From: Flagellimonas onchidii
GTDB lineage: Bacteria > Bacteroidota > Bacteroidia > Flavobacteriales > Flavobacteriaceae
Reading direction: 5' to 3'
NCBI RefSeq assembly: GCF_004804315.1
Contig: NZ_SRXX01000001.1
Span: 186,001-250,000, forward strand
Length of the DNA: 64,000 nt
Shown in pieces: positions 29,820 to 54,793 of this stretch. The notes under the pieces are model-generated. The model searched no databases, had not been told where the DNA came from, and saw only the letters and a list, made by a program, of their open reading frames with translations. The translations under genes were made by a program, and so were the position numbers. The stretch's first letter is position 1. Every line of letters starts with the position of its first letter.

Positions 29820-32800
29820 TTACTCCAAATAAACAAAAGCACCCCATTTCTCGGGTTCTTCCCGATACTTTTGCATCATTGTTGTTTGGGCCTCTTTAAA
29901 AGCATCTTTGGGATTGTTTCGTTTTTTCAAATTTCTATAAAACAACTTCATAAACTCAGCGGTTTCCTTATCCGGAACCTCCCAAAGGGTCATTATTATG
30001 GTGTCAACCCCCGCCATCTTGAAAGCTCTTTGAAGACCATAGACTCCCTCAGAACTAGGGATGTCGCCCAAGCCTGTCTCACAGGCCGATAAGATAACGA
30101 TGTCAGTGTTTCTGAGGTCGAGATTCGAAATTTCCAATGCAGTCAATATACCATCTTCATCTTCATGCGGATTATTGCCGTTCTGCCACGCATAGTTAGC
30201 ATTAGCCAGTATCAGGCCCGAACGTAATAGTGGGTTCTCAGCATGTACATAAGGCTTCCCTTGTCTCAACAGACGGTCTTCTTTCTTATTCTCTAGATCA
30301 GGGAAGAAATATCCATGGGTCGCAATATGGAGGACCGAGGGGCTATTGCCACTCAATGCCTTGAAGGATGTCTCGGTGGCCGTCTTACCGCTCCATATCT
30401 TGCTTGCTGGCAACAGGGATTTGATGTCCTCTACTTCCTTTTGAGTGCCTGGAAGATAGTTCCAGATGCCTTCTCTGGTATTGCGGTTTTTGTTCTCCCA
30501 GCTGCCCAATAGCTGTTCGCTCTCAAGAACACTGAATCCCCTATCGCCTTCTGAATCGATAGTATCTCCTTCGTAGGCGTATTCCACACCTCCTATCAAG
30601 AGCACATCATTTAGATTCGGTTGTATTGGATACATGTTCACATCAGCAGTATTACCCATTCGGCTCAGGTCATGACCTGAGCCTAATAACTCGCCTTCCT
30701 TATTCGGCAGGGCATCAAACGCTATTTTGTGCAAAAGCCCATCTGGGGAGTAGTAAATCTTTGAAATGTTTTGGGTATGTTCTTCCAAGGGCTCCCATAC
30801 CAACTTGTAGATACTATCGGAAACCATGGTGCCTGAGGAAACCGCCTTCGCGCCCCTGATATTGTACAATTGGTTTGGCGAACTGGCATTCACAAGGTAT
30901 TTTTCTAACTGCCCTGCTTCAAAAAGGTTAATCGCCTTGGGCGCCTCCCAGCCCTTTTTATATAAGTACGCCACATACATGGTACTGTCAGTCCATTGTT
31001 TGTTGTACACATCAAAATAGGTAAATTCTATCGCAAGGTCTTCTTCTTCTAATTTAATATCCTTAAAGTCCCGGACATAATTCATTTCCTCACCAAAATG
31101 CTCGTCATGAAGATTAACCAACTCACGTTCTAAAACCTCCAATTGCGATCGGCGTTCCTCAAAATCCTTGGAACGTTTGGCCATTGGAAGTTGTTCCTGG
31201 CTTTGCATAAAGCTCATATTGCCACGAAATTCGTTTACCTTTTTATCAATGCCAACTTGACCAAGGGAACTTAACTCTTCCAAGATATTTTTAGATGAGT
31301 TCAATAAAATGCCTTTTCTGGTCAAAATATTGTTCATTGCTATGGTTGAAGCCTGTTTGTATTTCGAATCTGAGATATAATTAAAGTTGGAAAAAACTTT
31401 AAAGTTGTATTTGCCAATATTATTTTCAAAAAAACTTTCTTTTTCTTTAGCTGTTTGATAACTAAAGTTTCTTGCAATTTGAAGTTGAGTGATTTTATTG
31501 TACTCCTTTAACGTTGTAAAAGCTTTTCCATAATCGCCCAACCTTTCATATACAATTGCAATATTCACTAAGACTTGTCCATAGTCGGGATGGTTTTTTC
31601 CTAGGTTATGTTCCATATTCTCAAGAGCTTCAATACTTAATTGCAAAGCTTTTTGATTTCTGCCAGTTTCCAAAAAAAGAATAGCTAAATCGTTTAATCG
31701 AAGTCCATAGAGCGGATGGTCCCTCCCCAACAACATTTCAGTCTCATTTTTAACTTTTAATGACAACTCTAAAGCTCTTTCAAAATCCCCCATGGATTTA
31801 TAAGACTGGGACAAATTGGATAAAATTGTTACATAGTTTGGATGATTTTTACTAAGGGTGGTTTCAACATTTTCTTTAGCCCTTAAAAATAGAGACAAAG
31901 CTTTATTATAGTCTCCCATTTCACGATATAATAAGGCCAAATTACTAAGAACAATCCCGTAGTCCGGGTGGTTCTTACCAAGAATTCTTTCTGTATTAGT
32001 CATTGATTTTCTATATAATGACAGTGCATTTTTAAAATGTCCTATTTTACGATAAAAATCAGCGAGACTATTTAAAACTGTCCCATAGAATGGATGGTCT
32101 CTCCCAACTGAGTTCTGAACAACCTTCAAAGCTTCTAAATACAATGGTAATGCTGTCTTATATTCTCCGATAGCGGTATATGTTTGTGCCAAAGTTTTTA
32201 TTCGAATTCCATAATAGGGATGGCTGCGTCCAAGTGAGTTTTTGGTATTTTTCACTGCCTCTATGAAAAAAGGCAAAGCTTTTTCATAATTCCCAAGCTG
32301 ACGAAATAAATCGCCCAAATTATTCAACCGATTACCATAATCGGGATGGTTTTTTCCAAGTGAATTCTCGGCATTTTCCAAAGCCTCAAAATATAAAGGT
32401 CGAGCTTTTTCAAATTTGCCCATAACCTTATATAATTGAGCCAGATTGTTCAATCGAATCCCGTAATCGGGATGGTTTTTTCCCAGATTCTGTTCTGTAT
32501 TCTCGAGAGCTTCAAGACTTAACGGTAAAGCTTTTTGAAATTCTCCCATGTCGTAATAAAGTGTTGCCAAATTATTCAATCTATTTCCATAATCTGTGTG
32601 ATTCTTACCAAGGAATTTTTCGGCGTGTCGTAAGGCGTCTAAACTTATAGGCAAGGCTTCATCATATTGGCCCATCTGAGTGTATAATTGACCTAAATTG
32701 TTTAAAATTGCTCCATAATTTGGGTGGTTTTGACCAAAGTTTTTATCAAAATTTTTCAAAACCTCCAAATACAGAGGTAGTGCTTTTTGATATTCACCCA

Positions 32801-33191
32801 TTGAGTTATACAAATCAGCCAAATTATTCATATTAATTCCATATTCAGCATGGGCCTCTCCTGCAGTTTTTTTAGTGCTTTCAAGTGCTTTCAGTTGTAA
32901 GGGCAAGGCTTTTTTGTAATCGCCCATATCTTGATATATACCTGCAATCATTGATAAAAACGTACCATAATATTGATGGTTTGTACCGTACAAATTTTTA
33001 AAACGTTCCAATGCCCTTTGGTAAGTATTTATGGCTTTATCAAAATTTAGTTTTGCTTTGAATTCACTAGCTTCGTTATATAAGCTTAAAATCTCTTGAA
33101 ATTCAAGTGAATTTTCATCAATCTCTACTTGTTGCCCTGAAGCCTCTGACGCAAGAAAAAAAAAGAAAAAAAAGAGGATTTGAATGCGCAT
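29820..33191 (-). CDS. Exported TPR-CHAT protease
   Basis: A 1123-aa protein: signal peptide (MRIQILFFFFFFLASEASGQ), then about twelve 42-residue tetratricopeptide repeats of the kinesin-light-chain type (about 60-580, consensus LGKNHPDYGxRLNNLAxLYxxMG), a helical linker, and a C-terminal CHAT domain (about 790-1123). The caspase-like catalytic residues are His959 in HIATHGYF and Cys1037 in LSACETGLG. The family is a caspase-fold peptidase; cytosolic relatives act with CRISPR type III-E or gasdermins. Here the signal peptide points to the periplasm or surface. It ends a three-gene unit with the two WD40-caspase genes (28-base gap). Substrate unknown. Confidence 0.9.
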   Translation of the reverse strand: MRIQILFFFFFFLASEASGQQVEIDENSLEFQEILSLYNEASEFKAKLNFDKAINTYQRALERFKNLYGTNHQYYGTFLSMIAGIYQDMGDYKKALPLQLKALESTKKTAGEAHAEYGINMNNLADLYNSMGEYQKALPLYLEVLKNFDKNFGQNHPNYGAILNNLGQLYTQMGQYDEALPISLDALRHAEKFLGKNHTDYGNRLNNLATLYYDMGEFQKALPLSLEALENTEQNLGKNHPDYGIRLNNLAQLYKVMGKFEKARPLYFEALENAENSLGKNHPDYGNRLNNLGDLFRQLGNYEKALPFFIEAVKNTKNSLGRSHPYYGIRIKTLAQTYTAIGEYKTALPLYLEALKVVQNSVGRDHPFYGTVLNSLADFYRKIGHFKNALSLYRKSMTNTERILGKNHPDYGIVLSNLALLYREMGDYNKALSLFLRAKENVETTLSKNHPNYVTILSNLSQSYKSMGDFERALELSLKVKNETEMLLGRDHPLYGLRLNDLAILFLETGRNQKALQLSIEALENMEHNLGKNHPDYGQVLVNIAIVYERLGDYGKAFTTLKEYNKITQLQIARNFSYQTAKEKESFFENNIGKYNFKVFSNFNYISDSKYKQASTIAMNNILTRKGILLNSSKNILEELSSLGQVGIDKKVNEFRGNMSFMQSQEQLPMAKRSKDFEERRSQLEVLERELVNLHDEHFGEEMNYVRDFKDIKLEEEDLAIEFTYFDVYNKQWTDSTMYVAYLYKKGWEAPKAINLFEAGQLEKYLVNASSPNQLYNIRGAKAVSSGTMVSDSIYKLVWEPLEEHTQNISKIYYSPDGLLHKIAFDALPNKEGELLGSGHDLSRMGNTADVNMYPIQPNLNDVLLIGGVEYAYEGDTIDSEGDRGFSVLESEQLLGSWENKNRNTREGIWNYLPGTQKEVEDIKSLLPASKIWSGKTATETSFKALSGNSPSVLHIATHGYFFPDLENKKEDRLLRQGKPYVHAENPLLRSGLILANANYAWQNGNNPHEDEDGILTALEISNLDLRNTDIVILSACETGLGDIPSSEGVYGLQRAFKMAGVDTIIMTLWEVPDKETAEFMKLFYRNLKKRNNPKDAFKEAQTTMMQKYREEPEKWGAFVYLE

Positions 33192-33219
33192 TATTAAAAC
33201 TGATTTTTAACTTTAAAAA

Positions 33220-36200
33220 CTAGTATTTTAAAAAGTCCATTATCTGCTCCACTAACATTTCAGTATCATTAGCTTTAATGGTGCTTTTTAGTTCAGAATC
33301 CCCACACTTTTGTTTCATCTGCAATTCAAGGCCATCTTTAGTTTGCTTGTAAATACCGCTCAACTTGCACGAATCAGGAAAGTCTGGTGTATCAAAAAAA
33401 ACCAAGTCCGCATCTACACCAATCGCAGAAATTGTAGATAGTTCTTTATCTACCAATTCAGTCAAACTCAACTTGTCATCAAAACTGTCGCTGGAAAGGA
33501 AAGATGACCGTACAAACACTTCCTTTGGTTTGGCGAGGGGAATCTCTTTCCGTTCCTCTTTGTCTAAAATACCGATGTAAACCGCTCCACTCTCCAAAAA
33601 AATATCTGGTTGTTGAATACCCCCCAATGACTCCGCCAATTTTGGCACCTCTTTTTCCGCAAAGCTCATAATTGGAATAATGTCTACCAATTTGTTGTCT
33701 TCTAACTGCTGAGCTCCACGTATCCCTTGTAAAATGGTATAGGTCAGTAAACCCTGACCAAAACGACTGGACTCATAACTGACTGCATCGGCCGCACTTC
33801 CCGAAATTATCGAAGTCCCTGCGTCATCAGCCATTCTATCTAAAGCCTTTTTCTTAGAGGGGTCATCATTGCGGGCTAACTTTATATTCTCTACCGCTTT
33901 GCCCGAACCACAGGCGTCAATGACCACAACCCGTTTTTGTGCTGCAATGTCTTTTAACCAATTCTTTAAATCTTTTGTGGAAACCGTTCTTGTATCCCGG
34001 ATGGCCTTATCGTTGTATACCTCTTTATTGGCTGAAGTAGCCTCTAAGGTCAAATAATGAAAGTCCCCTTGTAGGCCTCCCCAAGTAATGCCATGCCCTG
34101 CCATGTAGATAAAAATGATGTCTTCGGCATTGGCCTTTTCTGCAATTTCTTTAAAAGTATTCTCAATATTTCTTTTGGTCGGTTTTAGCCCTTCATCTGA
34201 TGTAAGTTTGTACATAAAGGTACGTTTTTCTTCGAACAAGTTTGACGCCCCTTTCTCTACAGCTTTGTATATTGAAGTGGCATCTTGAGCGGGATATTTG
34301 AGGTTGATTTCAGCATTTGCATATTCACTAACACCAAGGATTACTCCAAAAAATTGTGGTTCGGGCACCTCATCTTTATCTACTGTCAAAATCGCTTTTG
34401 CTCCGCGGCCCTGACCAAAATATTCATCTTTTCCTGAAGCCTTGACCCCAATTTCGTTATCCCCATCAACTAAATAGGGATGATCATCAACTTTTAGGTA
34501 TAACGTCTGTCTTTCTTCGGTGTTATCAAACTCACTTCCTCGGACATCATCAATAATACGTTTGCCATTTAAGAAAACAGAAACCTTACCATAGCCACCT
34601 TCTCGCTTTGTAAGGTGAATAGGTAATTTTCCCTCAACTATTTTACCCAATTCAACTTCAGGGGTCAACTGGTACTCGTCCATATCACGTACATCGGGTA
34701 AGATTTCACCTGCCATTACCTTTTTCCATAAGCCCGGAAGCCAATAGCGCTCTTTCAACTGTTCAAATTCAATGATTTCCGAACCCTTGGTCCAGTACAT
34801 CAATTTCATGGCTTCGGGTGAAGCATCAAACAGACCAGTTGGATGAAGGTGGAGCCACTTTTCAGGATTATCCTCAAAAATAAAATGACGTATCGTAGTT
34901 TCTTCCTTATCCAAGCTGAATATTTTGATGCTTCCATCTTTTGAAGCAGTCATAATTGTATTATCTTTTGGATGAAAAACTATAGAATTGATTTCATCAA
35001 AATGCCCACCTATTCTTCTTAACTCTTTGGCAGACTCCAAGCTCCACAATCTAACATAATTATCATCTGAAGCACTTAAAATGTAATTACCATTTTGACT
35101 GACTATTACGTCATTAACCCTTCCTTTATGACCTATAAATGTTTTAAGTGTTTCACCAGTTTTTACATCCCAAATCTTTATCTTTTTATCAGCAGAAGAT
35201 GAAATGATTTTCCCTTTGTCAAGAAATCTTACAAATCGAACGGCGGACTTATGGCCTAAATAAGTAAAGTTACAGTCTCCTGTTTCTAAATCCCAAATTT
35301 TTGCAGTATCATCTGAAGAAGCAGTAGCGATTTTTTTTCCATCCATATCCATATCAATACTCCATACCCAATCGGAATGACCTTTAAAAGTTTGCAATAA
35401 GTTAGAAGTTTCAACATCCCACAGCTTTGCTGTTTTATCCCAAGAAGATGTTAAAATAGTTAAATCATCAGGCCCAAATATTGCAGATGTGATTGCTCTG
35501 TTATGACTGCCTAAGAATTTCAATATTTCTCCTGTCTTTGAATTCCAAAGCTTTGAGGAGCCATCCCATGAAGACGTTAAAATATAATTGCCGCCAGAAC
35601 TAAATTTGGCTCCGGAAACATTGCCTCTATGGCCTTCAAGAACAGCATTCAACTTGCCATCTATCGTATTCCATACTCTGGCTGTTTTATCAGCATATGA
35701 GGAAACAAAGCTTTGCCCTGTAGCATCAAACTCAGCAGAGTTTACTTCACCCGTATAACCTTTAAAACTTCTAAGACAATTACCACTTGAAACATCCCAA
35801 ACTCTTGCCGATTTGTCCGATGAAACGGTTAAAATGTTATTTTCATTAGGCGAAAATATCGCGGATCGAACGCTACTTTTGTGACCAATGAAACTCTTAA
35901 TTTCAGTTCCTGTTTCCACATCCCATAATTTGGCGGTCTTGTCCCAAGAAGCTGTTAAAATTCTTGACCCATTATTATCAAAAATAGCTGAATCCACAAC
36001 TCCATCATGCCCTTCTAAGACATGTAATGGTGCGCCAGTTCGAACATCCCAAATTCTTACGGTATTATCATAACTAGCTGTTAACAAAATTTTTTCATTT
36101 GGTCCAAATACCGCGGATATTACTTTATCTGTATGGCCAAAAAATTGTTTCAAAAGTTTGCCGTTTTTTGAGTTCCATATAGCCGCCGTACTGTCAGATG

Positions 36201-36885
36201 AAGAAGTAAGAATCATATCTCCATTTTTATTAAAAACTGCAGAATTAACTGCATCCTTATGAGTTAAGGTGGTTTTCAATTTTCCATTATGGATATTCCA
36301 AGTTCTGGCAGTTCCATCATCTGAGGCTGTTAGAACCAATTCCATGCTAGGGTGAAATGCTGCCCCAACCACCGCATCTTCATGTCCACTATATGTTTGA
36401 ATAGCAGTACCACTGGAGACATCCCACAGCTTTGCGGTAAAATCAGCAGAACCTGTTAGCAATAGATTTTCCTCGGAGCGAAAACAAGAGGTTTCTACAC
36501 TTCCTGCATGACCATCAAATGACTTTAAAAGCTCTCCTGATTCTACATCCCAAAACTTGGCAGACCCATCATATGAATTTGTAATCACAATTTTGGATTC
36601 AGAATCAAACATTGCAGACCAAACATAACTAAAATGACCATTAAAAATTTGTAGCAATTTTCCTGTTTCCACATCCCATAACCGTGCAGTTTTATCATTT
36701 GAACCCGTTAATATTTGTTTACCAGTTTTGTCAAAATATCCAGTAATTATACCGTCAGTATGCCCCAAGGGCAATCCCAATTTCACTTCTTGTGCTAGTG
36801 AGATATTAGCAATAGACAAACCAGATATCAGACACAACAATGACGCTTTAAGGAGATAGAATTTCGGTAAATTTACACGAGTCAT
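33220..36885 (-). CDS. Exported WD40-caspase (C14) protein
   Basis: A 1221-aa protein. After a signal peptide ending SLAQ come fifteen WD40 repeats (about 40-665; typical unit GHxxxVxSAxFxxxGxxILTASxDxTAKLWDVETG), enough for two seven-bladed propellers. A linker with WLHLHP and GLFDASPEAMKLMY (about 675-705) and an Ig-like segment (FLNGKRIIDDVRG) lead to a caspase domain of peptidase family C14. Its dyad is His931 (IYMAGHG) and Cys992 (VIDACGSG). The C-terminal 150 residues are unassigned. WD40 modules sense or bind partners; cleavage specificity cannot be read. It sits 9 bases after its paralogue and 28 before the TPR-CHAT gene. Confidence 0.9.
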   Translation of the reverse strand: MTRVNLPKFYLLKASLLCLISGLSIANISLAQEVKLGLPLGHTDGIITGYFDKTGKQILTGSNDKTARLWDVETGKLLQIFNGHFSYVWSAMFDSESKIVITNSYDGSAKFWDVESGELLKSFDGHAGSVETSCFRSEENLLLTGSADFTAKLWDVSSGTAIQTYSGHEDAVVGAAFHPSMELVLTASDDGTARTWNIHNGKLKTTLTHKDAVNSAVFNKNGDMILTSSSDSTAAIWNSKNGKLLKQFFGHTDKVISAVFGPNEKILLTASYDNTVRIWDVRTGAPLHVLEGHDGVVDSAIFDNNGSRILTASWDKTAKLWDVETGTEIKSFIGHKSSVRSAIFSPNENNILTVSSDKSARVWDVSSGNCLRSFKGYTGEVNSAEFDATGQSFVSSYADKTARVWNTIDGKLNAVLEGHRGNVSGAKFSSGGNYILTSSWDGSSKLWNSKTGEILKFLGSHNRAITSAIFGPDDLTILTSSWDKTAKLWDVETSNLLQTFKGHSDWVWSIDMDMDGKKIATASSDDTAKIWDLETGDCNFTYLGHKSAVRFVRFLDKGKIISSSADKKIKIWDVKTGETLKTFIGHKGRVNDVIVSQNGNYILSASDDNYVRLWSLESAKELRRIGGHFDEINSIVFHPKDNTIMTASKDGSIKIFSLDKEETTIRHFIFEDNPEKWLHLHPTGLFDASPEAMKLMYWTKGSEIIEFEQLKERYWLPGLWKKVMAGEILPDVRDMDEYQLTPEVELGKIVEGKLPIHLTKREGGYGKVSVFLNGKRIIDDVRGSEFDNTEERQTLYLKVDDHPYLVDGDNEIGVKASGKDEYFGQGRGAKAILTVDKDEVPEPQFFGVILGVSEYANAEINLKYPAQDATSIYKAVEKGASNLFEEKRTFMYKLTSDEGLKPTKRNIENTFKEIAEKANAEDIIFIYMAGHGITWGGLQGDFHYLTLEATSANKEVYNDKAIRDTRTVSTKDLKNWLKDIAAQKRVVVIDACGSGKAVENIKLARNDDPSKKKALDRMADDAGTSIISGSAADAVSYESSRFGQGLLTYTILQGIRGAQQLEDNKLVDIIPIMSFAEKEVPKLAESLGGIQQPDIFLESGAVYIGILDKEERKEIPLAKPKEVFVRSSFLSSDSFDDKLSLTELVDKELSTISAIGVDADLVFFDTPDFPDSCKLSGIYKQTKDGLELQMKQKCGDSELKSTIKANDTEMLVEQIMDFLKY

Positions 36886-36894
36886 TATTTAAAC

Positions 36895-39800
36895 TTATTT
36901 TCCAAGTAAATCTTCCAATGTTTGAATCACTAAATTCATATCAAATTTATTATTCAAAATCAATGACTTACTGAAATCATTTTGATTATTATATAAATCC
37001 AACTCTAAAATTAGTTGGCCTTCTTCAGATTTGGTATAATGACCAGCTAAAGTATAATATTCATTATTACCAGAATCAATGCTGAAATAAGAAAATAATT
37101 CATCTTCTCCATCAACATAGTCTTTAATAGCTTGAATCGCCTTATCAGTTAACCCTAATGGGTCACGGGTAGTTCTAGTTTTTGAGGTCAATCTAATTTC
37201 TTTGACAACAGGTTTACCACGCAAGCTCGGGAAATTTTTGTTAGCTTTTTCATCTAAGCTGCCAAAGGGAAAATTAGCGGTACCAATAATTTTTGGTTGC
37301 TGTTTTACACCTAATTCTTCAGCCAAATCCTGCACTCGTTCCTCGGCATGCTGCAATATCTTTAAAGAATTGATGGGGCTTGATTGTGGCGTGTTCTTTA
37401 TACCTTCCAATAGGGAATAGGTCAACAGACCCATCTCATAATTGCTGGTCTCGTAGCTGGCCTGATCTTCCTGACTCCCCATGATCATCGCCGCTCCGGA
37501 AGCTGTTCGGAGCCGATCCAAGGATTTGGCGATAGTATTGCCTCCACTTTTTTCGTTGTAAAAACTCCCAGCCTCACAGGCATCCAAGACCACCACTCTC
37601 TTATTGGCCTTTATCTTTTTCAGCATTTCCTTAAGTTCATCGCCTGAAATACTACGTTGCTTAATCAAATCTCTAGCACCCGGCCCATCCATGTCAATGT
37701 TTACCCAATCATTCAAGAGTAAATGAATGTCCTTGTCCTCAGAACCATCTCTAGGAATGGCCTTGCCATGGCCACTAAAATGCACCCATACCACATCATT
37801 TGGGCCAGCCTTTTCGGCAATAGTCGAGAATACTTTTTCAATATTGGTTTTATTAGGTAGGGAATCCACTTTTTTTGAATGGGTGCTTAGCTTGTAAAAG
37901 CTTCGTTTTTTAAAAAATGAAGGAGTGGCCAATTTTAAGGCCTTTCCCATGGCTTGCACATCTTTTTCGGCGAACTGGAGATCCAAATCTTGAAAATTTC
38001 CGTCAGGGTAATCCCCAACCCCAATGATAACTCCATAAAAACTGGGATCTTCTAAATTTTTGTTGTTGCTAACAGGTACTGCTCCCCGATTACTAGTAAC
38101 TTTACCATTTGCTGTTTCTGCAATGATGCTTATGCTATTTTTCCCGTTAGGTAAGTCCTTTTTTGGATCCAAAACGAGCTTCAATTTTTGAACCGCTAAA
38201 GCACTATCAACCTGTTGGTTCAGGTCATGTGCAATTTCAACCCCATTGACATAGACCCGTATTACGCCCAAACCGCCTTCCCGTTTGGTAACCGTAACGG
38301 GTATGGTATAGCTATTTTTGGCCAATTGCTTAGGGTACTCCACTTTTGGAGGAAGATAATTTTTGAGTTCTTCTTTTGAGGGAACATCTCGCAAAGGCTC
38401 ATTGTTCATAACCTTTGGCCAAAGGTCAGGTTCCCAGTATAATTCTTTTAATTGTTGGAATTCTAGGACTTCAAGACCATAGGTATAGTACATGAGTTTC
38501 ATTGCTTCTGGCGAGGCATCAAAAAGGCCGCCTGGGTGAAGGTGGAGCCATTTATTGGGATCCCCATCAAACATAAAAAATCGAATCAATTGTTGCACGC
38601 CACCTGATTTCCAAATCACAAAACTGCCATCTTTTGAAGTACTAATAATTTTATCTTTTTTATTGGATAATTTAATTGATGTTATACCTAGGGAATGTGC
38701 TTTTTCCGATTTAATTAAATTGCCTGAAGAAACTTCCAATTCACTTAAAAAGCCCTCTTCATTTCTAGCTATTAAAATCGTTTGGTCCTTTGGGGTAAAC
38801 ACTGATGAATTATGATAACCATGCTGGTTCTTAAATTTTAGGATTTTTTTACCAGTCTTAAATTCCCAAAGAACCGGATCTTCGGTAAATGCAGAAGTTA
38901 ATAGGTATTTTCCGTTGTTGGAAAAAATTGCATTGGTAACATACTCTGAGTGACCTTTTAAGGTTGTCAATTTTTCGTTTGTCCGCAAGCTCCATGATTC
39001 TATCAACGAATCGTTGGCAATCAAAATGGTTTCGTCGTCTGAAGAAAAACCTAAAGATTTAACTCTTGAACCACTGGTTAAAAACGAGGCTAAAAGATTT
39101 CCTGTTATTTTATCGAAGACATTAACCTCGTGTTTTGAAATTTCACTTGATTTTTTGTCCCTACGAAAAAACTGGGTAACCATGACTTTATCTCCTTTAT
39201 TGGACATTTGATCCCATACTATAGAATTATTTGTCTTTAGTCTTTTTTCAATTCCGAAATCCCAAAATTTTAATTCTCTACCTGCACTAGTTATAATCAA
39301 TCCTGGCTCCAATAAATCGAACTTTGCCATTGTAATCTCCGATTTGTGGCCATCTAGAAAGGTTAATAGTTTATTTGCTTTGAAGTTTATACTCTTCAGA
39401 GTATGACCATCTTTGATAAACCAAAGGCTTTTGCTATCTGGTGTAAAAAACATTGTTTTGGGTGATAAATAATAGTTATTCGAGTATGAAAACAATTTTT
39501 CATAAGTATTTAAATCCCAAACACTTACATCTCCTTTATTTGATGCGGTTAAGAGTATTCTTCCATTTGGCGAGAACTTGGCAAAACGAACAGGGTTTTT
39601 ATTTTTAAAAGGTAGGGTGATGGTTTTTTGCGAATTATTATCAAACAGAATGGAATTACCCCAGTGATCTAAAAATGTTTTTGACCCATCAGGTGATATA
39701 ATGGGCGAAGAATAATATCCCTTCCACAACTTCAATTGAATTCTAGATTCTAAATCCCATAAGATAGTGGCATCATTAGAACTGGAAAGCAAGTATTTAT

Positions 39801-41565: not shown

Positions 41566-41691
41566 AGGAAAGTATCTGCTTAAAACTAAAAATATTAACA
41601 ACAAAAAGTATCACTATAAGTGGAAATTTTAAGGAAGACCTCCTGTAGAAAACAATGGTTTTTACTATTTTGGGTCATATTTACCCTATCA

Positions 41692-43047
41692 ATGAATATT
41701 CAATTAGTACATTCAACCATTTGCTGTTTTGTGACAATTCTAATTTCAATATTGTTCTCAGTTGGACTTTACTCGCAATCTAGAGGGGCCAAACCTATTG
41801 TCTCAAATGAAAAAGCTATAGAAATTAGAACAATTTATTCTGGAAGTTATGCATTGGTCATTGGGAATAGCTTATACCAATCTTGGGATAATCTTCCAGG
41901 CGTAAACAAAGATATAGGTGCAATTAAAAAGGTACTTGAACAGCATGGTTTTATTGTATTTACCAAACAAAACCTGAATAAAATAGAGCTTGATAATGCA
42001 TTTTCCAATTTCATCAGGGATTATGGTTATCAAGCGAATAATAGGCTTCTGTTCTATTTCGCAGGCCATGGATATACTTTGGAAAGCTCCTATGGGGAAC
42101 AATTTGGGTATTTGGTTCCTGTGGACGCGGAGAACCCAGTTTTTGCCAGTGATGCCCAATTTAAAAATAGTTCTATACCAATGAGTAGGATAATAGAATA
42201 TGCCAAAAGTATAGATTCAAAGCATGCTTTATTTTTATTCGATGCTTGTTTTTCAGGCTCCTTAATCAATGCAAGAGGGGGAAATCAAAATTTGGCAAGT
42301 ATAGTAGATAGTGTAAAATTACCTATTCGATATTTTATCACAAGTGGTTCTCCCAATGAAACCGTTCCGGATAAAAGTATTTTTAGAGAATTGTTTGTTG
42401 AAGCATTAACATCTTCAAGGGCCGATTATACTCAAGATGGTTTTGTGACGGAAGAAGAGTTAGGTCTTTTTCTAAGGGATAATGTTATCAACTATAGTTA
42501 TGGTCAGCAACATCCTCAGAAAGGCCCGATTAGAAACAATAGATTAGACAAAGGTGATTTCATTTTTAAATTACCAATGGTACATGAAGGTTTTTCTTCT
42601 TCTGATAGAATTACATTTTCGTATGAAAGCAGTGAAAATTCCAATAATTCGGCAAGCCCTTCAAATACTCCAAAAAAAAGGAAAATTAAGGAGGAGGAGT
42701 TGAAAAAATTAAGAGATTTCGGAAGAAAAATATTGTTCAACACAGGAAAGTCTGATATTAAGTCTGAGGGTATTTCTTCTATACTTGAAATCGTTTTAAT
42801 ACTACAGAAATATCCTGAAACAGCTTTTTTTGTAGAAGGACATACTGATAACATTGGCGACGGCCCTACAAATCAACTACTCTCTGAAAAAAGAGCCTCG
42901 GCAGTTAGATATTACCTTATCGGTAGAGGAATTAATGCATCGAGGCTTACCAGTATTGGATATGGAGAAAGCAAGCCAATAGCTACTAACAGAACTAAAT
43001 CTGGCAGAGCACAAAACAGAAGAATAGAATTTCGACTGAAAAAATAA
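41692..43047 (+). CDS. Exported caspase (C14)-OmpA fusion protein
   Basis: A 451-aa protein from the ATG at 41692, chosen because it gives one signal peptide ending VGLYSQ; an earlier in-frame ATG at 41620 would add a second hydrophobic stretch. The caspase domain (about 40-290) has His126 (YFAGHG) and Cys186 (LFDACFSGS), plus an EF-hand-like TQDGFVTEEELG. The last 105 residues are an OmpA/MotB peptidoglycan-binding domain (ILFNTGKSDI, VEGHTDNIGDG, RASAVRYYLIGRGI, NRRIEFRL). The OmpA domain should tether the protease to the cell wall in the periplasm. It heads a plus-strand unit with CHASE2 and FecR-like genes and is divergent from the WD40-caspase genes. Confidence 0.88.
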   Translation: MNIQLVHSTICCFVTILISILFSVGLYSQSRGAKPIVSNEKAIEIRTIYSGSYALVIGNSLYQSWDNLPGVNKDIGAIKKVLEQHGFIVFTKQNLNKIELDNAFSNFIRDYGYQANNRLLFYFAGHGYTLESSYGEQFGYLVPVDAENPVFASDAQFKNSSIPMSRIIEYAKSIDSKHALFLFDACFSGSLINARGGNQNLASIVDSVKLPIRYFITSGSPNETVPDKSIFRELFVEALTSSRADYTQDGFVTEEELGLFLRDNVINYSYGQQHPQKGPIRNNRLDKGDFIFKLPMVHEGFSSSDRITFSYESSENSNNSASPSNTPKKRKIKEEELKKLRDFGRKILFNTGKSDIKSEGISSILEIVLILQKYPETAFFVEGHTDNIGDGPTNQLLSEKRASAVRYYLIGRGINASRLTSIGYGESKPIATNRTKSGRAQNRRIEFRLKK

Positions 43048-43054
43048 TCTTAAT

Positions 43055-44230
43055 TTGAAAATTCAAAACTCATTTTTACTCTGGCGTGATGCTCTTGGAT
43101 GTACCCTTTTAACTTTTTTGATTGGGGGCTTTTTCTACTTGTTATTGAATAGTGCCAATTTTTTAAGTCCGATTGAAAATGCCTTTCGGGATTTTAATTA
43201 TAGTGACATTTATTATTCCAAACTTCAGGATTCTGTTACCAAAACGGACAAGATTATTTTGGTGAATGTGGGCCATGCCAATCGTTTGGAGATAGCTATG
43301 GGTTTGCAAACAGTTACTTCGCAAAACCCAAAAGTCATTGGCTTGGATATGATATTTAAAGATGCCAAAGAGCCAAATAGTGATTCCATTCTTAAAGCCA
43401 TATTAAAAAGCACCCCTAATTTGGTCTCTGCCTTTCGTTTTGATCGGGACAGAATAGTAGATAATCATCCCAAGTTTGAAATTCCCCTGAAAAATTCTGG
43501 ATATTTGGATTTATCAATAAATGATGAAACTTCCGTTGTGCGGCAGTTCACTGGGGCCAAAACAATTAAAAATAACACCTTATTGGCGTTTCCAGTAAAA
43601 GTGGCTTTAGAGGCAGGCTTTCTTGATAAGGATAAGATAGCTAAACTTTATGACCATGAATTGACCATTAATTATTTTGGAAACCAAAATCGTTATCTGA
43701 GTTTTGACATTGAAGAATTATTGGATCGGAAAAACATCCCAGCCATGTACAATGCCATTGTATTGTTTGGGTTTATGGGTGATAGTTTAGGCGACAATTT
43801 TTCTTTGGAGGACAGACATTACTCCCCCTTGAATCCTAAGTTTGCCGGAAGGTCTTTTCCAGATATTTATGGGCTTGTGATTCATGCCAATATCATAGAA
43901 ATGTTCACCACTAGTCAATTTATTTATCGAGTACCTAATTTTTTTAGTTGGTTATTTGCGTTTATTGGCACATGGGGCCTAATTGCGTTGGGCATGAGAA
44001 TTGGAAAAAAGAATGCCTTCGCCTTTGATTTTGGCATCAAAATTGTACAAATTTTAGCTACCATTATCTTATTATACCTTACATATGCATTGGTAAAGAC
44101 AAACATTCATTTGCAAATTACCCCCTTAATAATTTTGTCTTTATTAGGTTTAGAAATGATTTGTTTTTATACTCATTTAACCCGATTTGTTAAAAAACGC
44201 TGGCCATGGAAAAGCTATGTTATAGATTAA
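43055..44230 (+). CDS. CHASE2-domain membrane protein
   Basis: A 391-aa protein starting at a TTG 7 bases after the caspase-OmpA stop; no closer ATG exists. One N-terminal membrane helix (about 14-34) is followed by an extracytoplasmic CHASE2 sensor domain (about 40-285; VIGLDMIFKDAKE, NYFGNQNRYLSF, YNAIVLFGFMGDSLGD) and three C-terminal helices (about 295-375). CHASE2 is usually joined to a cyclase or kinase; here it ends after the helices, so it has no built-in output domain. Its 3' end overlaps the FecR-like gene by 25 bases. CHASE2 next to FecR and caspase or CHAT genes is a recurring bacterial arrangement. Ligand unknown. Confidence 0.85.
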   Translation: MKIQNSFLLWRDALGCTLLTFLIGGFFYLLLNSANFLSPIENAFRDFNYSDIYYSKLQDSVTKTDKIILVNVGHANRLEIAMGLQTVTSQNPKVIGLDMIFKDAKEPNSDSILKAILKSTPNLVSAFRFDRDRIVDNHPKFEIPLKNSGYLDLSINDETSVVRQFTGAKTIKNNTLLAFPVKVALEAGFLDKDKIAKLYDHELTINYFGNQNRYLSFDIEELLDRKNIPAMYNAIVLFGFMGDSLGDNFSLEDRHYSPLNPKFAGRSFPDIYGLVIHANIIEMFTTSQFIYRVPNFFSWLFAFIGTWGLIALGMRIGKKNAFAFDFGIKIVQILATIILLYLTYALVKTNIHLQITPLIILSLLGLEMICFYTHLTRFVKKRWPWKSYVID

Positions 44231-44976
44231 TTCTCTTCCTTTTTGTTCCCGTTTCCTTTTATGGTCAAAGGGTCAACTCACTACTTGTGTTCAGCTCAAA
44301 AGGCGATATCATCAATATGAAAACAAGAGAAGTTATTTTAAAAGGTGACATCCTGAAAAAGCAAGATGTTTTGCTTTTGGATAATGAAGCAAGTATTACA
44401 GCTATTGATGCAGACGGACAGGCATACACCTATGAAGGTGAAGCAAAATGCAGGTTTGCTGATTTGCTCGAAAAGAAAAAAAAGTTGAACAATCTGACCG
44501 TTCGCTATTTTCAATTCATCTATCAGGAATTTACAGGACAACAACCTAAAGAGTCAGTCATGGCTGGGGTTTATCGGGGTAATGATTTGCTAATTACGCC
44601 ACCAGATTCGGCAATGGTCTCCAATCGAAATCTAAGATTCTTTTGGGAACATGCTAATACCAACTTCTATTACTTTTTCCTTCGGAACAAAACCACAGAA
44701 GAAATTTTTAAAATCGGTGTTTCTGGAACCCAAATTAAGCTTTATGAAGAAAAGTCCATTTTTAAAGGTTCGACCCAATTTGAATGGACGGTGGACACCC
44801 GTGAATATCCTGATTTAAAAAATATTGGATGGAATAGGTTTGAGATAAAAAATTATAAAGAAGTTGAGACTGAACTATTACGCTATGAAAAATTCATTGA
44901 AGACATGAAAGTACTCGGATTTAGTAAAAATGAAGTTACTAAAAGAATTTGTGAAAGCTATGGTGTCTGCAAATAG
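44206..44976 (+). CDS. Secreted FecR-like domain protein
   Basis: A 256-aa protein with signal peptide MEKLCYRLILFLFVPVSFYGQ. Residues about 25-85 follow the FecR beta pattern (LLVFSSKGDII...GDILKKQDVLLLDNEASITAIDADGQAYTYEGE). Residues about 115-215 form a second beta domain (TPPDSAMVSNRNLRFFWEHAN). The start overlaps the CHASE2 gene by 25 bases, so translation is coupled. FecR-type periplasmic domains interact with membrane partners in signalling. Here the partner is probably the CHASE2 protein. The 288 bases after it (44977-45264) hold no gene. Confidence 0.75.
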   Translation: MEKLCYRLILFLFVPVSFYGQRVNSLLVFSSKGDIINMKTREVILKGDILKKQDVLLLDNEASITAIDADGQAYTYEGEAKCRFADLLEKKKKLNNLTVRYFQFIYQEFTGQQPKESVMAGVYRGNDLLITPPDSAMVSNRNLRFFWEHANTNFYYFFLRNKTTEEIFKIGVSGTQIKLYEEKSIFKGSTQFEWTVDTREYPDLKNIGWNRFEIKNYKEVETELLRYEKFIEDMKVLGFSKNEVTKRICESYGVCK

Positions 44977-45264
44977 TTAAGATTTCAACGAATAGTTAGT
45001 TACCTGCCACCATTTTACTCCAAGACAACTAGTGATATCATTTATTCTAATTTGAGGTAAGAAAAAAGTTCTGTGTATAATTTTACCTTGTATTTGAATG
45101 AAAACAGCATAATTCCCTATAGTATTAGAAATAAAGGTTAAAATGAAATGAGAAATACAACAAGCAATAATGCTGGCATTAACATCATTACAGAGCCTAA
45201 AAATTATTTTTATTTAACACTTTTTTCACTATATCCAAAATGATATGAACTAAAGCCAATTAGC

Positions 45265-47093
45265 ATGAATCAAAATTCACACTTATCGTTGTTTTTGTTG
45301 GCACAACTCTCCTTAGTGCCCAAAAAAGAGGTGCTAAACCAGTCGCAAAAACTAGTCCAAACGAGTTCATATCGTTATATCAAAACAGTTATGCCCTATT
45401 AATAGCTAATAGTAATTATAAAGAAGAAAATTGGAATAAACTACCTGGGACAAGAGAAGATATATTGGCAATAAAAAAGGCGCTTGAACAACACAATTTT
45501 AAAGTTGAGTTACACTATAATCTAAACCTCAGAGAGATGGACGAGGTGTTACAAAATTTTGCGGAGAAATATGGCTATCAAGAAAATAATCGTTTGTTAT
45601 ATTACTATGCCGGACATGGGGCCACACTTTACAATAAGGTTTTAAAAGAAGATGTCGGTTATCTAATTCCTTTAAATACTCCTAATCCAGCCAAAACCGA
45701 TAGCCCTGCAAGATTTAAAAAAAACGCTTTCCCTTTTTCCAAAATTATTGAATATGCAAAGACACATGTTGAATCGAAACACGCTTTGTTCTTATTTGAC
45801 GCTTGTTTTTCCGGATCCCTTTTCGAATCGCGTTCAGGAACAATCGAACCAAAGAATATTCCCAATTTCGACCTACCCATTAGATATTTCATAAGCAGTG
45901 GTACGGGCAAAGAATCAGTTCCCGATAAAAGCGAATTCAGAAGACAGTTTATAAAGGCTTTAACTTCTAATGAAGCGGACTATAACGGGGACACATATCT
46001 AACTGAAGAAGAATTGGGGTGGTTTCTAAGAAATAGTGTTTCTTATTATACTTCTTCTGCACAAAACCCCCAATTTGGTGCGATAAGGGATTCTCGTTTG
46101 GACAAAGGGGATTTCATATTTAATTTGCCAAAAAAAGAATCCGGGTTGGTACAAAATCAATTAAATACAGGCACTTTGGCACCTAAGCAGGCACTTGTTG
46201 CATTAGAAGCTGAGTCGGCCAACCTTAGTGTGGTTGATAATATTTTTGCCTTTAGCGAAAGACATCGAACAGCAGTAATCAGGCTAAAGAATTTTTCTGA
46301 CGTAGAAGGAAACAATGTTAAAGTACGAGGTTTCGCTTATTTGGATAATCGTATAGAGGAAATTGATTTTACCAGTGAAAAGTTAATCTTTCCTGGGGAC
46401 ATAAGTATTTTAGATACTGATTTACGCGGATTTCCATTAGAAAATAAACCTCCAGATTCCATTGTTTTATGTATTACTCATGGCAATAAAAACACCTCAG
46501 TAAAAACTAAATACAAGTACATGCTGGATGATCGGCGCCCTTCACTTTCAATTCAAGCAGCCACCTACACCTACCGTGTAAAACTTTTGAATCGTTACTC
46601 ATTCACAAATAAGGAACCCTCTTGCCTAACAGATACATCAAAACTAACTTCGGATACCGAAAGGGTGGAGCGAGAAGCCACTCTCAAAAAGAGAAATAAA
46701 ATTCGTCATGATGCGATAACATTTCTAATGGGAATGAATAGAAAAAAAGAGAACATATTTGAACCTTATTGCACCAAAGAAGTGCTTTCATCTGTTAAAA
46801 ATATCCTCAGCAAACAAAATTTTGGATTCAAACCAGATATTGACATCAACAACTTCAATACCAAAGTAGCTTATGTTACTATCTATATGACAAATAGTGA
46901 ATTTAAAAATAGAATGGTCGAAAACACCATTGCCCTATACAACCGCAGCAAAACTTTTGAAGATTTTGAAAACGAAAGTATTTTACCCTTTATGAAAGAA
47001 AATGGTTTTACGTGGACTGCCAAACTAGTAAAAAAAGGTGAAAACTGGAAGTTTACGGTGCATGAAGAGTCGGAAATGGCCAAAAAAAAATAA
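45265..47093 (+). CDS. Caspase-family (C14) protein with frameshifted signal-peptide region
   Basis: The long frame is open to 47093 and begins at a TTG at 45465, but its coding signal extends upstream: in the same frame 45271-45464 encodes a signal peptide and the caspase N-terminus (KFTLIVVFVGTTLLSAQ, then SYALLIANSNY and LPGTREDILAIKK) matching the caspase-OmpA paralogue. The only ATG (45265) is out of frame by 2. One extra A in ATGAATCA would give a perfect start (MKSKF). So either a 1-nt deletion has broken the gene or the sequence has an error. The dyad is intact (His codon 45615, Cys codon 45804). The C-terminal 330 residues lack OmpA and are unassigned. Confidence 0.8.
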
Positions 47094-47284
47094 ATTTACT
47101 GAGAATACATACCCGACAGTTTAGCTTGCCCTTAAATCGAGATAAAATTCTCTCCTTTACTTGGATTTAAAAAAAGTATTTAATAAATAAAAATCAGTCC
47201 ATTTCTAAGTTCACAACTAGAGTATTTGGTTTTTAAAAATAGAAAACAATATTCTAAGAAAAGGGAGAGTTACATATGAAATGG

Positions 47285-50200
47285 TCAATACCATAAGTCC
47301 CAATTTAAATACTTATTTGATTCTCTACTTGTTGGTTGCTGTGAACCTCCAGTAATAATTGGAACTGTTTTAAGAATGTAATTTTTAAGTTCATTTACGC
47401 TTATAATTCCATTTGAATCCTCATCAGCTTTATAATCTAGTAATCCAAGTTTAATAGTGTAAGTAAATGATCCATTCTGCCATCTTGAAGATTCTAGAGC
47501 AACACTATTTCCGGAGGCTGCAGTAATTGTTTCCAGACCAGTTGTTGAACTAAAGCTTGAAAAAACATTTTGCATCAATAAAAAAGCTGATTTTGCTGAA
47601 GTTTGGTTTTGGGTCTTCATAGAGGTAGCAACAGCGCCTTTGGTTGCAAACTGTTTTTCTTTAAGAACGGGTTTGTCATCAGCAATAATATCAGATTTTT
47701 TTTCATCTGAAGATTCTGTTGTATCTACTAAACCTGAATAACAGGAATCTATAAGCAACAACTTTTTATGCGAGTTTAATTTTGAAAGGAGTTTTTGAAA
47801 GTCTTTTAATCCCATTCCACGAATTTTCGGGTTATCAAAATCAATATCGTAAGTGGCGAAATAAAAATCATCGTTTTCATCCAAGAGTCCATGTCCAGAC
47901 AAGAAGATTACTACTTTATCATTAATACCTGTATTTAATTGAGTTAATAGGGCTTCAATATTTTCTTTGGTTACATCTTCATCATATAATTCTTTAGATA
48001 CAACCGATTTATAGGAGTCAGATTGTCTTTTAAATGCTTTAATAAGATCTTTTCCGTCTTTCGTGGCATACGTTAGATTATAATTTGAGTTTTGGTATTT
48101 TGAAACGCTTATGGTGTAGACAAATAAATTCTCATTTGCGGTTTTTGACCTTGAACTTATTTTTAACTCCTTGGCAAGCCTACTGTTATTTTGAATCAGT
48201 TCAATATGATTCTCACCATAACCTACAGGAATTTGTATATTCTCTATCGATTCTTCATCTTGTTTTATGTTTTGCCCATTTACCGTTTTAATGACTTTAT
48301 TGCGCTGTAGCGGTTTTTTTACATGTATTTTGACCATATTTTTATCCGAATTAAAAGACTGTTTGTCATAGTCTATGGACACCATACTTCTATCGCTGAT
48401 ATTTGAAGATGTATTCATGGATTCAAAAAATTCCTTTCTCAACTCATAGGCCTTATTATAGAGCGTTACAGTTTCATTATCTGACTTCCCAATAGATTTT
48501 AAAACAATATCAGGCCTGTTAAATTCTATATCCAAAAATTTATCATAATATATCTCTCCGCCAATTTGAGTAAGATAGACATTGGTCATTGGATTGGAAC
48601 TACAATAATATTCATCTTCGTCCAAGCCAATAATTTCTCCATTGCCATTTTGATAGACCTTTGCTAATAAATCTCCACTATTCGGATTTCGGAGATGAAC
48701 CGCACCACTGGATTCAACAACAATCAAAAAATCTTTTGATTTCGTAACCAATATCTTGATAGGTCTAGAGCTTAATGGGCGGAACTCACCCCATTTTTTA
48801 TCAATTCCATTGAATGGCACTATTCCGAATTTACCATAAGATTTTGAGAAAACTGTAGTCCAAATAAGTGAATCGCTCAATTTAGACATTAGCATAACAC
48901 GTGTGTAATCATCCGGTATACTTAAAGTATCGTTTTGCACAGAATTATTGGGATGATATCTTACTATATTTGTTAGTTGGGATTTTAGCAAACTTCTATC
49001 ATTTAGCCTAATACAACTAAAATCTGGAGCATCAAATGAGATGTAAAAGTGGTTTTTTGATGCTATATTATAACTCGATAATTTTTGTCTTTTTTTGTCC
49101 CATGTATAAAATTGATTTCTGGAATAAAATGTAATTGTGTTTTCATCAGAATTAAAATCATTTTTTATGAATATGTCATCTTTTTCTAGAAGAACTTTTT
49201 TTTCTTGAATATCAAAAATCTTGAGACCATCTATTCTATCCCAAGAATTATATCCCTTGACTTTTTCAAGAAATAAATATCTATCATCGAAAATTGCAAT
49301 AGGCCTATCAAATCTATTTACCCCAGAGCTATCAATAACAGTACTATCAGTAGTTTTAGTTTTTAAGTTTTCATTAAACGCTGTTTTTATAAGATAGGTT
49401 GGAGAGTTATTGGAGTAGCCTTTACTGGTAATTGAATAGTTAATTATTCCGTCAGAGGTGAGATTGGTAATTCCTTTTTCAAAATCTACTTCATGTTGGA
49501 AATTGGAAAGATTGGTAACATTATTATTTAAGCTTAGTACCCCCCCTTGCTGTTGAATTTTAGTGATTGGTAAATTTGAATTGGTTAAAACTTTTTGAAC
49601 ATTATCTCCCGATAGTTCTAATACATAAATATTATTGTTGTTTAATTTTACCAATAACCTGGTGCCTCCATAATTAATGTTAATATCATTTATTTCAAAG
49701 TCATAGCTATTATTGTAACGTTCAACGGGTAAAATACTACCGCCAATTATTGTCTGTTGGTTATAATCATAGCACATAAGACCAACACCCTTATAGTCTT
49801 CGACAGCATAAAATATCCAAGGTTGGGTTGGATGAAATTCAGCTATTTTTGAGATATTATGGGTAATAGCAATACTCTTTTTGGGCTTGGCAAGATTTAT
49901 AATCTTTTCATCGTACTCATCATCTTTTATCAGTAGTCTTTTTTTACTGTCAAAGGCCAATATATTTAAGCGGTCAAATTCAAATTCATAAAAGGGCTTC
50001 TCTATGGCATTTTTAACATTGTAGAACTTCATATTTTTACCCTCATTGTTATATATACCAATATTACCTGATAAGGGATCATAATATGTTTTAAGGAAAT
50101 AATGTGAGTATTCTTGATTTTTTATTGTAGCAATTGTATCCCCAGTCGTAAAGCTTACTAAGTTTATTTGCGTTTTAGGCACATCCAAAGTGAACATGTA

Positions 50201-50329
50201 ATCTGAATGACCATTTACATTTAATAAATTATTAGTGCTGTCGAATGTGTATTTTGGTATTAACGAATTATTTTTAAATTCAAATATGTCAAGTCCAGAA
50301 GTGTATGAGGGGTAAACCCAAAAGTGCAA
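47285..50329 (-). CDS. Propeller-caspase (C14) protein, 5' end cut by prophage
   Basis: A 1014-aa frame. Residues 1-620 are degenerate beta-propeller repeats (FTTGDTIATIKN, LVVESSGAVHLRNPNSGDL). The caspase domain at about 745-1014 has His813 (FLSGHG) and Cys863 (LIDSCYSG), with an EF-hand-like loop (DEDSNGIISVNEL) near the end. No signal peptide or true start is present: the frame opens at a TTG at 50329 that falls where the Mu-like prophage seems to begin, and the first in-frame ATG is codon 45 (50197). All three intact chromosomal relatives nearby are exported, so I infer that the promoter, signal peptide and first blades lie beyond the prophage's other end. Probably inactive. Confidence 0.8.
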   Translation of the reverse strand: MHFWVYPSYTSGLDIFEFKNNSLIPKYTFDSTNNLLNVNGHSDYMFTLDVPKTQINLVSFTTGDTIATIKNQEYSHYFLKTYYDPLSGNIGIYNNEGKNMKFYNVKNAIEKPFYEFEFDRLNILAFDSKKRLLIKDDEYDEKIINLAKPKKSIAITHNISKIAEFHPTQPWIFYAVEDYKGVGLMCYDYNQQTIIGGSILPVERYNNSYDFEINDININYGGTRLLVKLNNNNIYVLELSGDNVQKVLTNSNLPITKIQQQGGVLSLNNNVTNLSNFQHEVDFEKGITNLTSDGIINYSITSKGYSNNSPTYLIKTAFNENLKTKTTDSTVIDSSGVNRFDRPIAIFDDRYLFLEKVKGYNSWDRIDGLKIFDIQEKKVLLEKDDIFIKNDFNSDENTITFYSRNQFYTWDKKRQKLSSYNIASKNHFYISFDAPDFSCIRLNDRSLLKSQLTNIVRYHPNNSVQNDTLSIPDDYTRVMLMSKLSDSLIWTTVFSKSYGKFGIVPFNGIDKKWGEFRPLSSRPIKILVTKSKDFLIVVESSGAVHLRNPNSGDLLAKVYQNGNGEIIGLDEDEYYCSSNPMTNVYLTQIGGEIYYDKFLDIEFNRPDIVLKSIGKSDNETVTLYNKAYELRKEFFESMNTSSNISDRSMVSIDYDKQSFNSDKNMVKIHVKKPLQRNKVIKTVNGQNIKQDEESIENIQIPVGYGENHIELIQNNSRLAKELKISSRSKTANENLFVYTISVSKYQNSNYNLTYATKDGKDLIKAFKRQSDSYKSVVSKELYDEDVTKENIEALLTQLNTGINDKVVIFLSGHGLLDENDDFYFATYDIDFDNPKIRGMGLKDFQKLLSKLNSHKKLLLIDSCYSGLVDTTESSDEKKSDIIADDKPVLKEKQFATKGAVATSMKTQNQTSAKSAFLLMQNVFSSFSSTTGLETITAASGNSVALESSRWQNGSFTYTIKLGLLDYKADEDSNGIISVNELKNYILKTVPIITGGSQQPTSRESNKYLNWDLWY

Positions 50330-50460
50330 TAAAAATGGGGCTTTACGGGTTTTGGTATCATCATTTATGATAATCCCATGTTAATTTATATGTGGTGACT
50401 TCAGCCAAGTTCCAGTAAAGGTATTAATTTCCCCATTAAAAATGGGCGTTTTTAACCCAT
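50325..50460. promoter_or_regulatory. Putative left end of prophage with transposase-binding repeats
   Basis: AAAAATGGG followed by a TTT run occurs at 50331-50344 and again at 50438-50453, 107 bases apart. That spacing is similar to the L1-L2 spacing at the Mu left end. The second copy lies inside an inverted repeat (CCCATT-N3-AATGGG followed by CGTTTTT) that could also act as a terminator. The role is inferred from position; no footprint-like consensus is known to me for this phage group. Confidence 0.4.
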
Positions 50461-51270: not shown

Positions 51271-51298
51271 AAGCCTTTTGCAATTAAAAATCAGATAG

Positions 51299-51366
51299 TT
51301 TTCTAACACACTATGAGATATTTTTCTAAAAATATTTTATGTTTAGAAAATTTTCTAATATATTTG
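51299..51366 (+). promoter_or_regulatory. Repressor operator array and early promoter
   Basis: The octamer TTTTCTAA occurs at 51299-51306, 51322-51329 and 51351-51358, and inverted at 51343-51350. The last two form a perfect 16-bp palindrome, TTAGAAAATTTTCTAA. Directly after it, TATATTTG (51359-51366) matches the Bacteroidetes -7 box TAnnTTTG and would start transcription about 30 bases before the Ner-like gene. Bound repressor would cover this box. Confidence 0.7.
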
Positions 51367-51401
51367 TTCCCAATAAAGATAATTTTCAAAACTACACAAT
51401 T

Positions 51402-54792: not shown

Positions 54793-54793
54793 A

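Follow-up and report, generated by a model that had tools for sequence, protein, structure and literature searches.

A CHASE2/FecR-like gene pair within a cluster of caspase-fold proteases predicted to be exported in Flagellimonas onchidii

Introduction

Exported metacaspases have already been described in bacteria, and possible surface or fratricidal roles have been proposed for them (Asplund-Samuelsson et al. 2012, PMC3501461). Pseudo-orthocaspases carry a signal resembling that of twin-arginine translocation (PMC6426788), and in the CHASE2-linked orthocaspases of cyanobacteria the caspase part is placed in the cytoplasm (reviewed in PMC7475262). The sensor domain CHASE2 is also known from the BiofilmReg operon, which encodes a response regulator, a LysM-FecR protein and a CHASE2 histidine kinase; in Burkholderia it has been linked to biofilm, and the paper states that what CHASE2 senses is not known (PMC5192318). 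CHASE2 occurs as well in proteins of the TRADD-N conflict system (PMC8195603). Here we analyse a stretch of 64,000 nucleotides (nt) of Flagellimonas onchidii (the window; C1:186001-250000 of a 4.2-Mb genome in 57 contigs), in which caspase-fold genes at 29820-50329 adjoin genes for a CHASE2 protein and a FecR-like protein.

We show that the association of CHASE2, a FecR-like protein and exported C14 proteases recurs in Bacteroidota beyond chance. With a probability of roughly 0.5, the cluster would be an accessory island that forms an extracytoplasmic protease-signalling module, in which the sensor pair controls exported caspase-fold proteases in the envelope.

Results

Within the cluster, a plus-strand gene (43055..44230) encodes a 391-amino-acid (aa) protein with CHASE2 as its only domain. 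The following plus-strand gene (44206..44976) overlaps it and encodes a 256-aa protein with a signal-peptide-like N-terminus, for which FecR-like is our working label. The CHASE2 protein has about 20 residues past its last helix and no histidine kinase output domain. Its operon holds no response regulator; the nearest one found, at 28879-29544, is part of a flank common to another genome of the genus, G042 (other genomes and loci are likewise given by our G and L numbers).

The recurrence of these genes was assessed with CHASE2 alone as the bait. CHASE2 was matched in 29 of 395 genomes sampled from the phylum, the own genome included. Of the 28 others we used 27, G181 being dropped because its match contained stop codons, and took 30 stretches; each of the 27 genomes has between 0 and 8 C14 matches genome-wide. 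C14 lay within 10 kb of CHASE2 in 7 of the 27 genomes against 0.29 expected (P 3e-8), and papain-like C1 in 4 against 0.09 expected (P 2e-6), while CHAT did so in 1 against 0.18 expected (P 0.16). A second set consisted of the best 80 of 296 loci by likeness to the CHASE2 of the window, and its rates hold for that subset. By title these loci are Bacteroidota in the wide sense, including Ignavibacteria and Kapaibacterium, with one titled only "bacterium", and many fall short of 20 kb. The two sets are not independent, because they share some of their loci: L073 and L170, for instance, appear to be a single contig.

Counted with family hidden Markov models (HMMs) built from these very loci, a FecR-like gene was present in 72 of the 80, C14 in 30, C1 in 12, CHAT in 6 and OmpA in 9; C14, CHAT or C1 was present in 42. 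In 70 of the 80 loci the FecR-like gene follows downstream of CHASE2 in the same orientation, with an overlap or gap of at most 150 nt, and the order in the window is identical. Pfam adds L134 as a seventh CHAT locus, beyond the counts used here; the HMM match at L134:15623 had been a candidate caspase and was rejected, being CHAT by Pfam. As the loci share synteny, they were collapsed by shared non-system neighbours to 42 groups, which retained FecR-like in 34, any protease in 21, C14 in 17, C1 in 4 and CHAT in 3. For comparison, 20 control loci of 20 kb were hand-picked at round coordinates from 17 genomes (two outside the CHASE2 set), not matched to the genomes of the 80 loci; they contained no C14, CHAT, C1, CHASE2 or FecR-like gene, and OmpA in three cases. 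The difference between groups and controls is significant for any protease (21/42 versus 0/20, P 3e-5) and for C14 alone (P 3e-4). The earlier note on this DNA had proposed looking for conserved co-occurrence of the exported caspase types with CHASE2 and FecR; among exported C14, CHASE2 and the FecR-like protein it is borne out, whereas OmpA lends it no support and CHAT does not reach significance.

Gene fusions join the same families. In two genomes (L080 and L182), CHASE2 is directly followed downstream by a gene for a single protein that combines a signal peptide, a FecR-like part, a caspase domain and a beta-barrel of the outer membrane, the barrel match being just above the curated cut-off in L080 and below it in L182. 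A domain preceding an outer-membrane barrel is expected on the periplasmic side. The fusion therefore suggests a caspase placed in the envelope, which extends the case for export beyond signal peptides. Counting the two as independent events was rejected because they are 57% identical along the protein, and they represent one event. CHASE2 is itself fused to a FecR-like domain in L082. In L106:13665-15653 and L109:10971-13157 it is fused to a SpoIIE phosphatase or nucleotide cyclase and adjoins C14, and C1 or a C1 fragment; these are a similar neighbourhood with inward-directed output.

Six caspase-fold genes, one TPR-CHAT and five C14, lie side by side at 29820-50329. Three are densely packed on the minus strand: a TPR-CHAT protein (29820..33191; 1123 aa, signal peptide, CHAT 1.1e-55, TPR_12, dyad ATHG / SACE) and two WD40-C14 proteins with signal peptides and intact His/Cys, at 33220..36885 (1221 aa) and 36895..41604 (1569 aa as listed, first ATG at codon 14), which share about 30% identity. 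Divergent from this trio, the plus strand carries a C14-OmpA protein (41620..43047; 475 aa with a hydrophobic stretch at 32-50, a caspase domain and a C-terminal OmpA domain), then CHASE2 and the FecR-like gene, then a C14 paralogue (45465..47093; 542 aa as listed, His/Cys intact). The sixth gene (47285..50329, minus strand) is of the propeller type, with a C14 domain and intact His/Cys, and seems to be the C-terminal portion of a longer gene. All six genes listed in the earlier note are thus present with their dyads, by alignment, yet the cluster does not end at 50329. Past a prophage, the N-terminal propeller part is followed by a probable lipoprotein (judged by eye), two C14 proteins of 475 aa (PF00656) and 656 aa (PF00656, weak DUF4384 match) and a 499-aa secreted protein, and the whole cluster comprises eight caspase-fold proteins, seven C14 and one CHAT. 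PF00656 scores above its curated cut-off in five window proteins and the two past the prophage.

Relatives of these genes are found in other loci. The 656-aa C14-DUF4384 protein aligns over its full length, at 32%, with a gene from Pedobacter that lies 3 kb away from CHASE2 (L119), and the 499-aa secreted protein has relatives in 5 of the 80 CHASE2 loci, four of them in one synteny group. TPR-CHAT and WD40-C14 relatives occur in L077, L123, L094, L174 and others, those of TPR-CHAT beside CHASE2 in L077, L123 and further loci. Among the 80, several caspase-fold genes per locus are seen in L134 and L189 (four each) and L174 (three); the L134 set, in which three C14 genes and a CHAT gene accompany CHASE2 and its FecR-like neighbour, is comparable to that of the window. 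Some further protease arrangements were observed. L105:1-19850 (G218), found by C14, contains a run of eight consecutive C14 genes, of which the first is truncated at the locus boundary, together with a papain-like C1; no CHASE2 was seen there within 20 kb. Exported papain-like C1 proteins with a C-terminal DUF4384 match lie at L070:11984-13417, L072:7057-8421 and L105:18408-19850, adjoining exported C14 or CHASE2. Such a C1 stands beside CHASE2 in the Flavobacteriaceae loci L116-L118, L121, L122, L127 and L133, with no C14 in the stretch covered. C14 is fused to an FGE-sulfatase domain in L101:8523-10574 and L141:5874-7754, and the L141 copy is directly upstream of CHASE2.

The catalytic residues are conserved. 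In an alignment of 45 rows, the His/Cys dyad is kept in all seven C14 proteins and the CHAT protein of the cluster; the two rows without it are a second fragment of the window propeller C14 and L110:8541. In the 80-locus set, the dyad is present in 40 of 40 matches (39 C14 and one CHAT). The model of the C14-OmpA protein has a mean predicted local distance difference test (pLDDT) score of 69, with most of the caspase part at 80-98, and the structure nearest to its predicted caspase domain is the MALT1 paracaspase (E 9e-15).

Export was assigned by a crude home-made rule for signal peptides, applied to the window, L009 and L070-L194. Eight of the 12 cluster open reading frames (ORFs) other than CHASE2 pass: TPR-CHAT, both WD40-C14, the propeller N-terminal part, the lipoprotein, both C14 past the prophage and the 499-aa protein. 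The truncated propeller part is among those that fail. Across loci, 65 of 79 C14 pass compared with 365 of 1147 other ORFs (P 6e-19), with exported proteins also counted among the other ORFs and some loci nearly duplicating one another; so do 8 of 8 CHAT, 20 of 25 C1 and 74 of 93 FecR-like ORFs. These predictions support the export of most cluster proteins from the cytoplasm. No type IX secretion system C-terminal sorting domain is among the families listed (best 25 families for the two WD40-C14 proteins).

The cluster is an accessory island and not core envelope machinery, because CHASE2 is found in 1 of 69 same-genus genomes, the own genome only. PF00656 is found in 8 of the 69, the own genome included; these counts use PF00656 and CHASE2 queries, as a whole C14-OmpA query was swamped by OmpA matches. 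The GC content is 0.31-0.41 at 28-52 kb versus 0.41-0.48 at 4-28 kb and 52-64 kb, in agreement with the AT-rich block of the earlier note; it is low too at the far left end (0.34-0.38 at 1-4 kb). A promoter scan was uninformative. Of 16 same-genus genomes searched, G042 gave the best match; its left flank keeps synteny through the response-regulator gene (72%, window 29544) and then differs: where the island begins in the window, G042 (L215, G042:C1:156001-176000) has other genes without a match to the cluster, some of which look like conjugation genes. The right flank of the island was not found in the 20 kb of G042 examined. Left of the cluster, the window contains three very long minus-strand ORFs, at 2972-13756, 14177-19201 and 19891-25707 (3594, 1674 and 1938 aa).

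This break of synteny, with unrelated genes following it in G042, would suit an insertion hotspot in which accessory genes of no common function have collected, as island neighbourhoods do. The same families, however, reunite in distant Bacteroidota and as fusion proteins, and are seen in 0 of 20 control loci. The absence of any system is therefore highly improbable, and for CHASE2, the FecR-like protein and C14 a hotspot origin is largely refuted.

A Mu-like prophage interrupts the cluster. Its left part occupies 50452..64000 and it continues to about C1:268000 (window, L007 and L008), with genes for a repressor, a transposase, a transposition protein, DUF3164, sheath, baseplate and tail fibre. 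A tape-measure-like gene at 60092-62242 lies on the strand opposite to the tail genes further on. The open frame of the propeller C14 extends up to the prophage, and the part for the propeller N-terminus, which includes a signal peptide, is found some 32 kb off on its far side (C1:268024-269406; L009:24-1406). The propeller gene has likely been cut in two by the prophage, because both parts match L174:3-2837 in order and each ends at the prophage; the propeller-caspase listed in the earlier note would then be its C-terminal part. A 5-bp repeat, AAGTG, lies near both prophage edges, but the frames of the two gene parts disagree across it. An 8-bp repeat agrees in frame, yet about one is expected by chance by our own arithmetic.

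We also considered a conflict system, in which the caspase-fold proteases would kill their own cell in a regulated manner, for example when a phage attacks the envelope, or be exported to kill neighbouring cells. Caspase and CHAT proteases are effectors in several conflict systems, and the island nature, patchy distribution and AT-richness of the cluster would fit. OmpA or PEGA domains, presumed to act near the cell wall, are present in some conflict systems (PMC7159879), and surface or fratricidal action had been raised in 2012 (PMC3501461). PADLOC, on the other hand, gave no complete anti-phage system but partial single-domain matches in 10 proteins (a caspase model, ZorB matching the OmpA domain, and a HEAT/ARM model matching the WD40 repeats). 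The EACC1-associated caspase model NF047832 scored 24-60 bits against a cut-off of 140 in the five C14 proteins scanned, those other than the two WD40-C14 proteins. A non-exhaustive inspection of the cluster (best 25 families for WD40-C14) revealed no STAND NTPase, pore-former or immunity gene, and a prophage inside the cluster would speak little for strong phage defence. The self/non-self recognition suggested in the earlier note finds nothing pointing to it, as near-identical or hypervariable WD40 repeats were looked for in the WD40-C14 proteins and not found. Taken together, a conflict system seems unlikely to us.

Discussion

We propose that the CHASE2 protein, membrane-anchored with a periplasmic sensor domain and no cytoplasmic output, may form one sensor with a periplasmic FecR-like partner. 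Upon an envelope cue, this pair would set free or activate the exported caspase-fold proteases, and a number of these may be held near the outer membrane or peptidoglycan, as the barrel fusion and the OmpA domain suggest. The WD40, TPR and propeller parts could serve as docking or sensing surfaces. The activated proteases would cleave targets in the envelope or of the cell itself. Should they behave like other proteases of the MALT1/orthocaspase fold, cleavage would probably fall after Arg/Lys, a specificity guessed because the caspase model is closest to MALT1. Where CHASE2 is combined with a cyclase, SpoIIE or the published histidine kinase, the signal would go inward; here it would pass sideways within the envelope. 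Control of the proteases by the sensor pair is the simplest reading because it fits the adjacency, the missing cytoplasmic output and the fusion.

Several observations weigh against it. Some concern the partner. The FecR-like family aligns with a four-protein profile, of which all three members scanned pass PF04773, at 92.5% and E 5e-7 (hhalign), and this match, on which the FecR link depends, runs partly over signal peptides. FecR is not among the families shown for the 22 aligned FecR-like members (25 of 29 families shown). The window protein has no Pfam match of its own, and DUF928 is weakly matched in 2 of the 22. Its model (pLDDT 83) is mostly beta with an Fn3-like part and C-terminal helices; Foldseek returned nothing at E <0.001; most of its matches were Fn3-type domains, and the C-terminal domain of MtxA also appeared in the list. 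By these comparisons the partner appears only distantly FecR-like. Further points come from the counts. CHAT adjacency to CHASE2 is not significant (groups versus controls, P 0.30), and C1 is significant by genome density (P 2e-6) but not between groups and controls (P 0.20). OmpA was rejected as a CHASE2 partner (9/80 loci versus 3/20 controls, P 0.81). No protease is present in the stretch covered in 38 of the 80 CHASE2 loci, 30 with a FecR-like partner and 8 with CHASE2 only. G329 has CHASE2 and a FecR-like gene and no C14 genome-wide, with C1 instead, and G146, G282 and G242 carry 5, 5 and 8 C14 matches, none near CHASE2. Such protease-free pairs and distant C14 genes limit the reading that the sensor controls the proteases. 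Finally, the C14 relative L110:8541 lacks both dyad residues (Arg and Thr instead), and among the window proteins C14-OmpA, the FecR-like partner and the C14 paralogue fail the signal rule. The hydrophobic stretch at 32-50 of C14-OmpA may be a signal peptide or an anchor, the FecR-like protein fails by an acidic residue at position 2 and is otherwise signal-like, and the paralogue is immediately preceded, in frame, by a stretch resembling a signal peptide, with no ATG, GTG or TTG in frame ahead of that stretch.

The variety of proteases beside one sensor type, C14, CHAT and papain-like C1, would fit a generic proteolytic output. Envelope housekeeping, constitutive or stress-induced, could account for it: surface proteins would be matured or recycled by the proteases, with the CHASE2/FecR-like pair as no more than a regulator of general envelope physiology such as adhesion or biofilm, as the biofilm-linked CHASE2-histidine-kinase/LysM-FecR operon of Burkholderia illustrates (PMC5192318). 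The patchy accessory spread of CHASE2 (1/69 same-genus and 29/395 phylum genomes) is nevertheless unlike housekeeping, and eight caspase-fold proteins seem more than maturation needs. We regard this explanation as rather doubtful.

The signalling module proposed above has a broader form, which we put forward tentatively: caspase-type proteolytic signalling wholly outside the cytoplasm, patchy but widespread in Bacteroidota, in which an output-less CHASE2 and a FecR-like protein might switch on exported proteases of the caspase, CHAT and papain-like types, both in the periplasm and at the outer membrane. To our knowledge, no job has been assigned to exported bacterial caspases. The conserved module of CHASE2, FecR-like protein and exported protease, with its FecR-like-caspase-barrel fusion, offers a genetic handle on their role and on the cue of CHASE2.

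Among known systems, Csx29 and other caspase/CHAT conflict effectors share the TPR-CHAT architecture and the catalytic dyad with the window protein. The latter differs in its predicted export, in the lack of a recognised CRISPR or NTPase partner within the cluster, and in adjoining CHASE2 and the FecR-like gene. In Nostoc punctiforme, a CHASE2 / DUF928 / WD40 gene group resembles the cluster by combining CHASE2 with WD40 proteins and, weakly, by DUF928 (2 of the 22 FecR-like members); it is known from one species of seven surveyed, and the passage that describes it names no caspase (PMC5587647). BiofilmReg has a CHASE2 sensor adjoining an exported FecR-domain protein gene, a place taken in the window by the distantly FecR-like one. 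Its output is a cytoplasmic histidine kinase with a response regulator, and its description mentions no caspase in the part covered, whereas the CHASE2 of the window is output-less (PMC5192318). The exported metacaspases and orthocaspases of PMC3501461 are alike in the C14 His/Cys dyad, in the probable signal peptides of some, and in WD40 and peptidoglycan-binding partners, OmpA being present in 14 of 217 metacaspase operons. They differ in having at most three metacaspases per operon and no FecR-like partner in the parts of the paper covered, and CHASE2 is there a fusion with the caspase on the cytoplasmic side. Export as such was thus proposed before and alone is not new. No joint description of CHASE2, a FecR-like protein and an exported caspase was found in the open-licence PubMed Central (PMC) literature. 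Exported bacterial caspases and CHASE2/FecR operons have each been described already.

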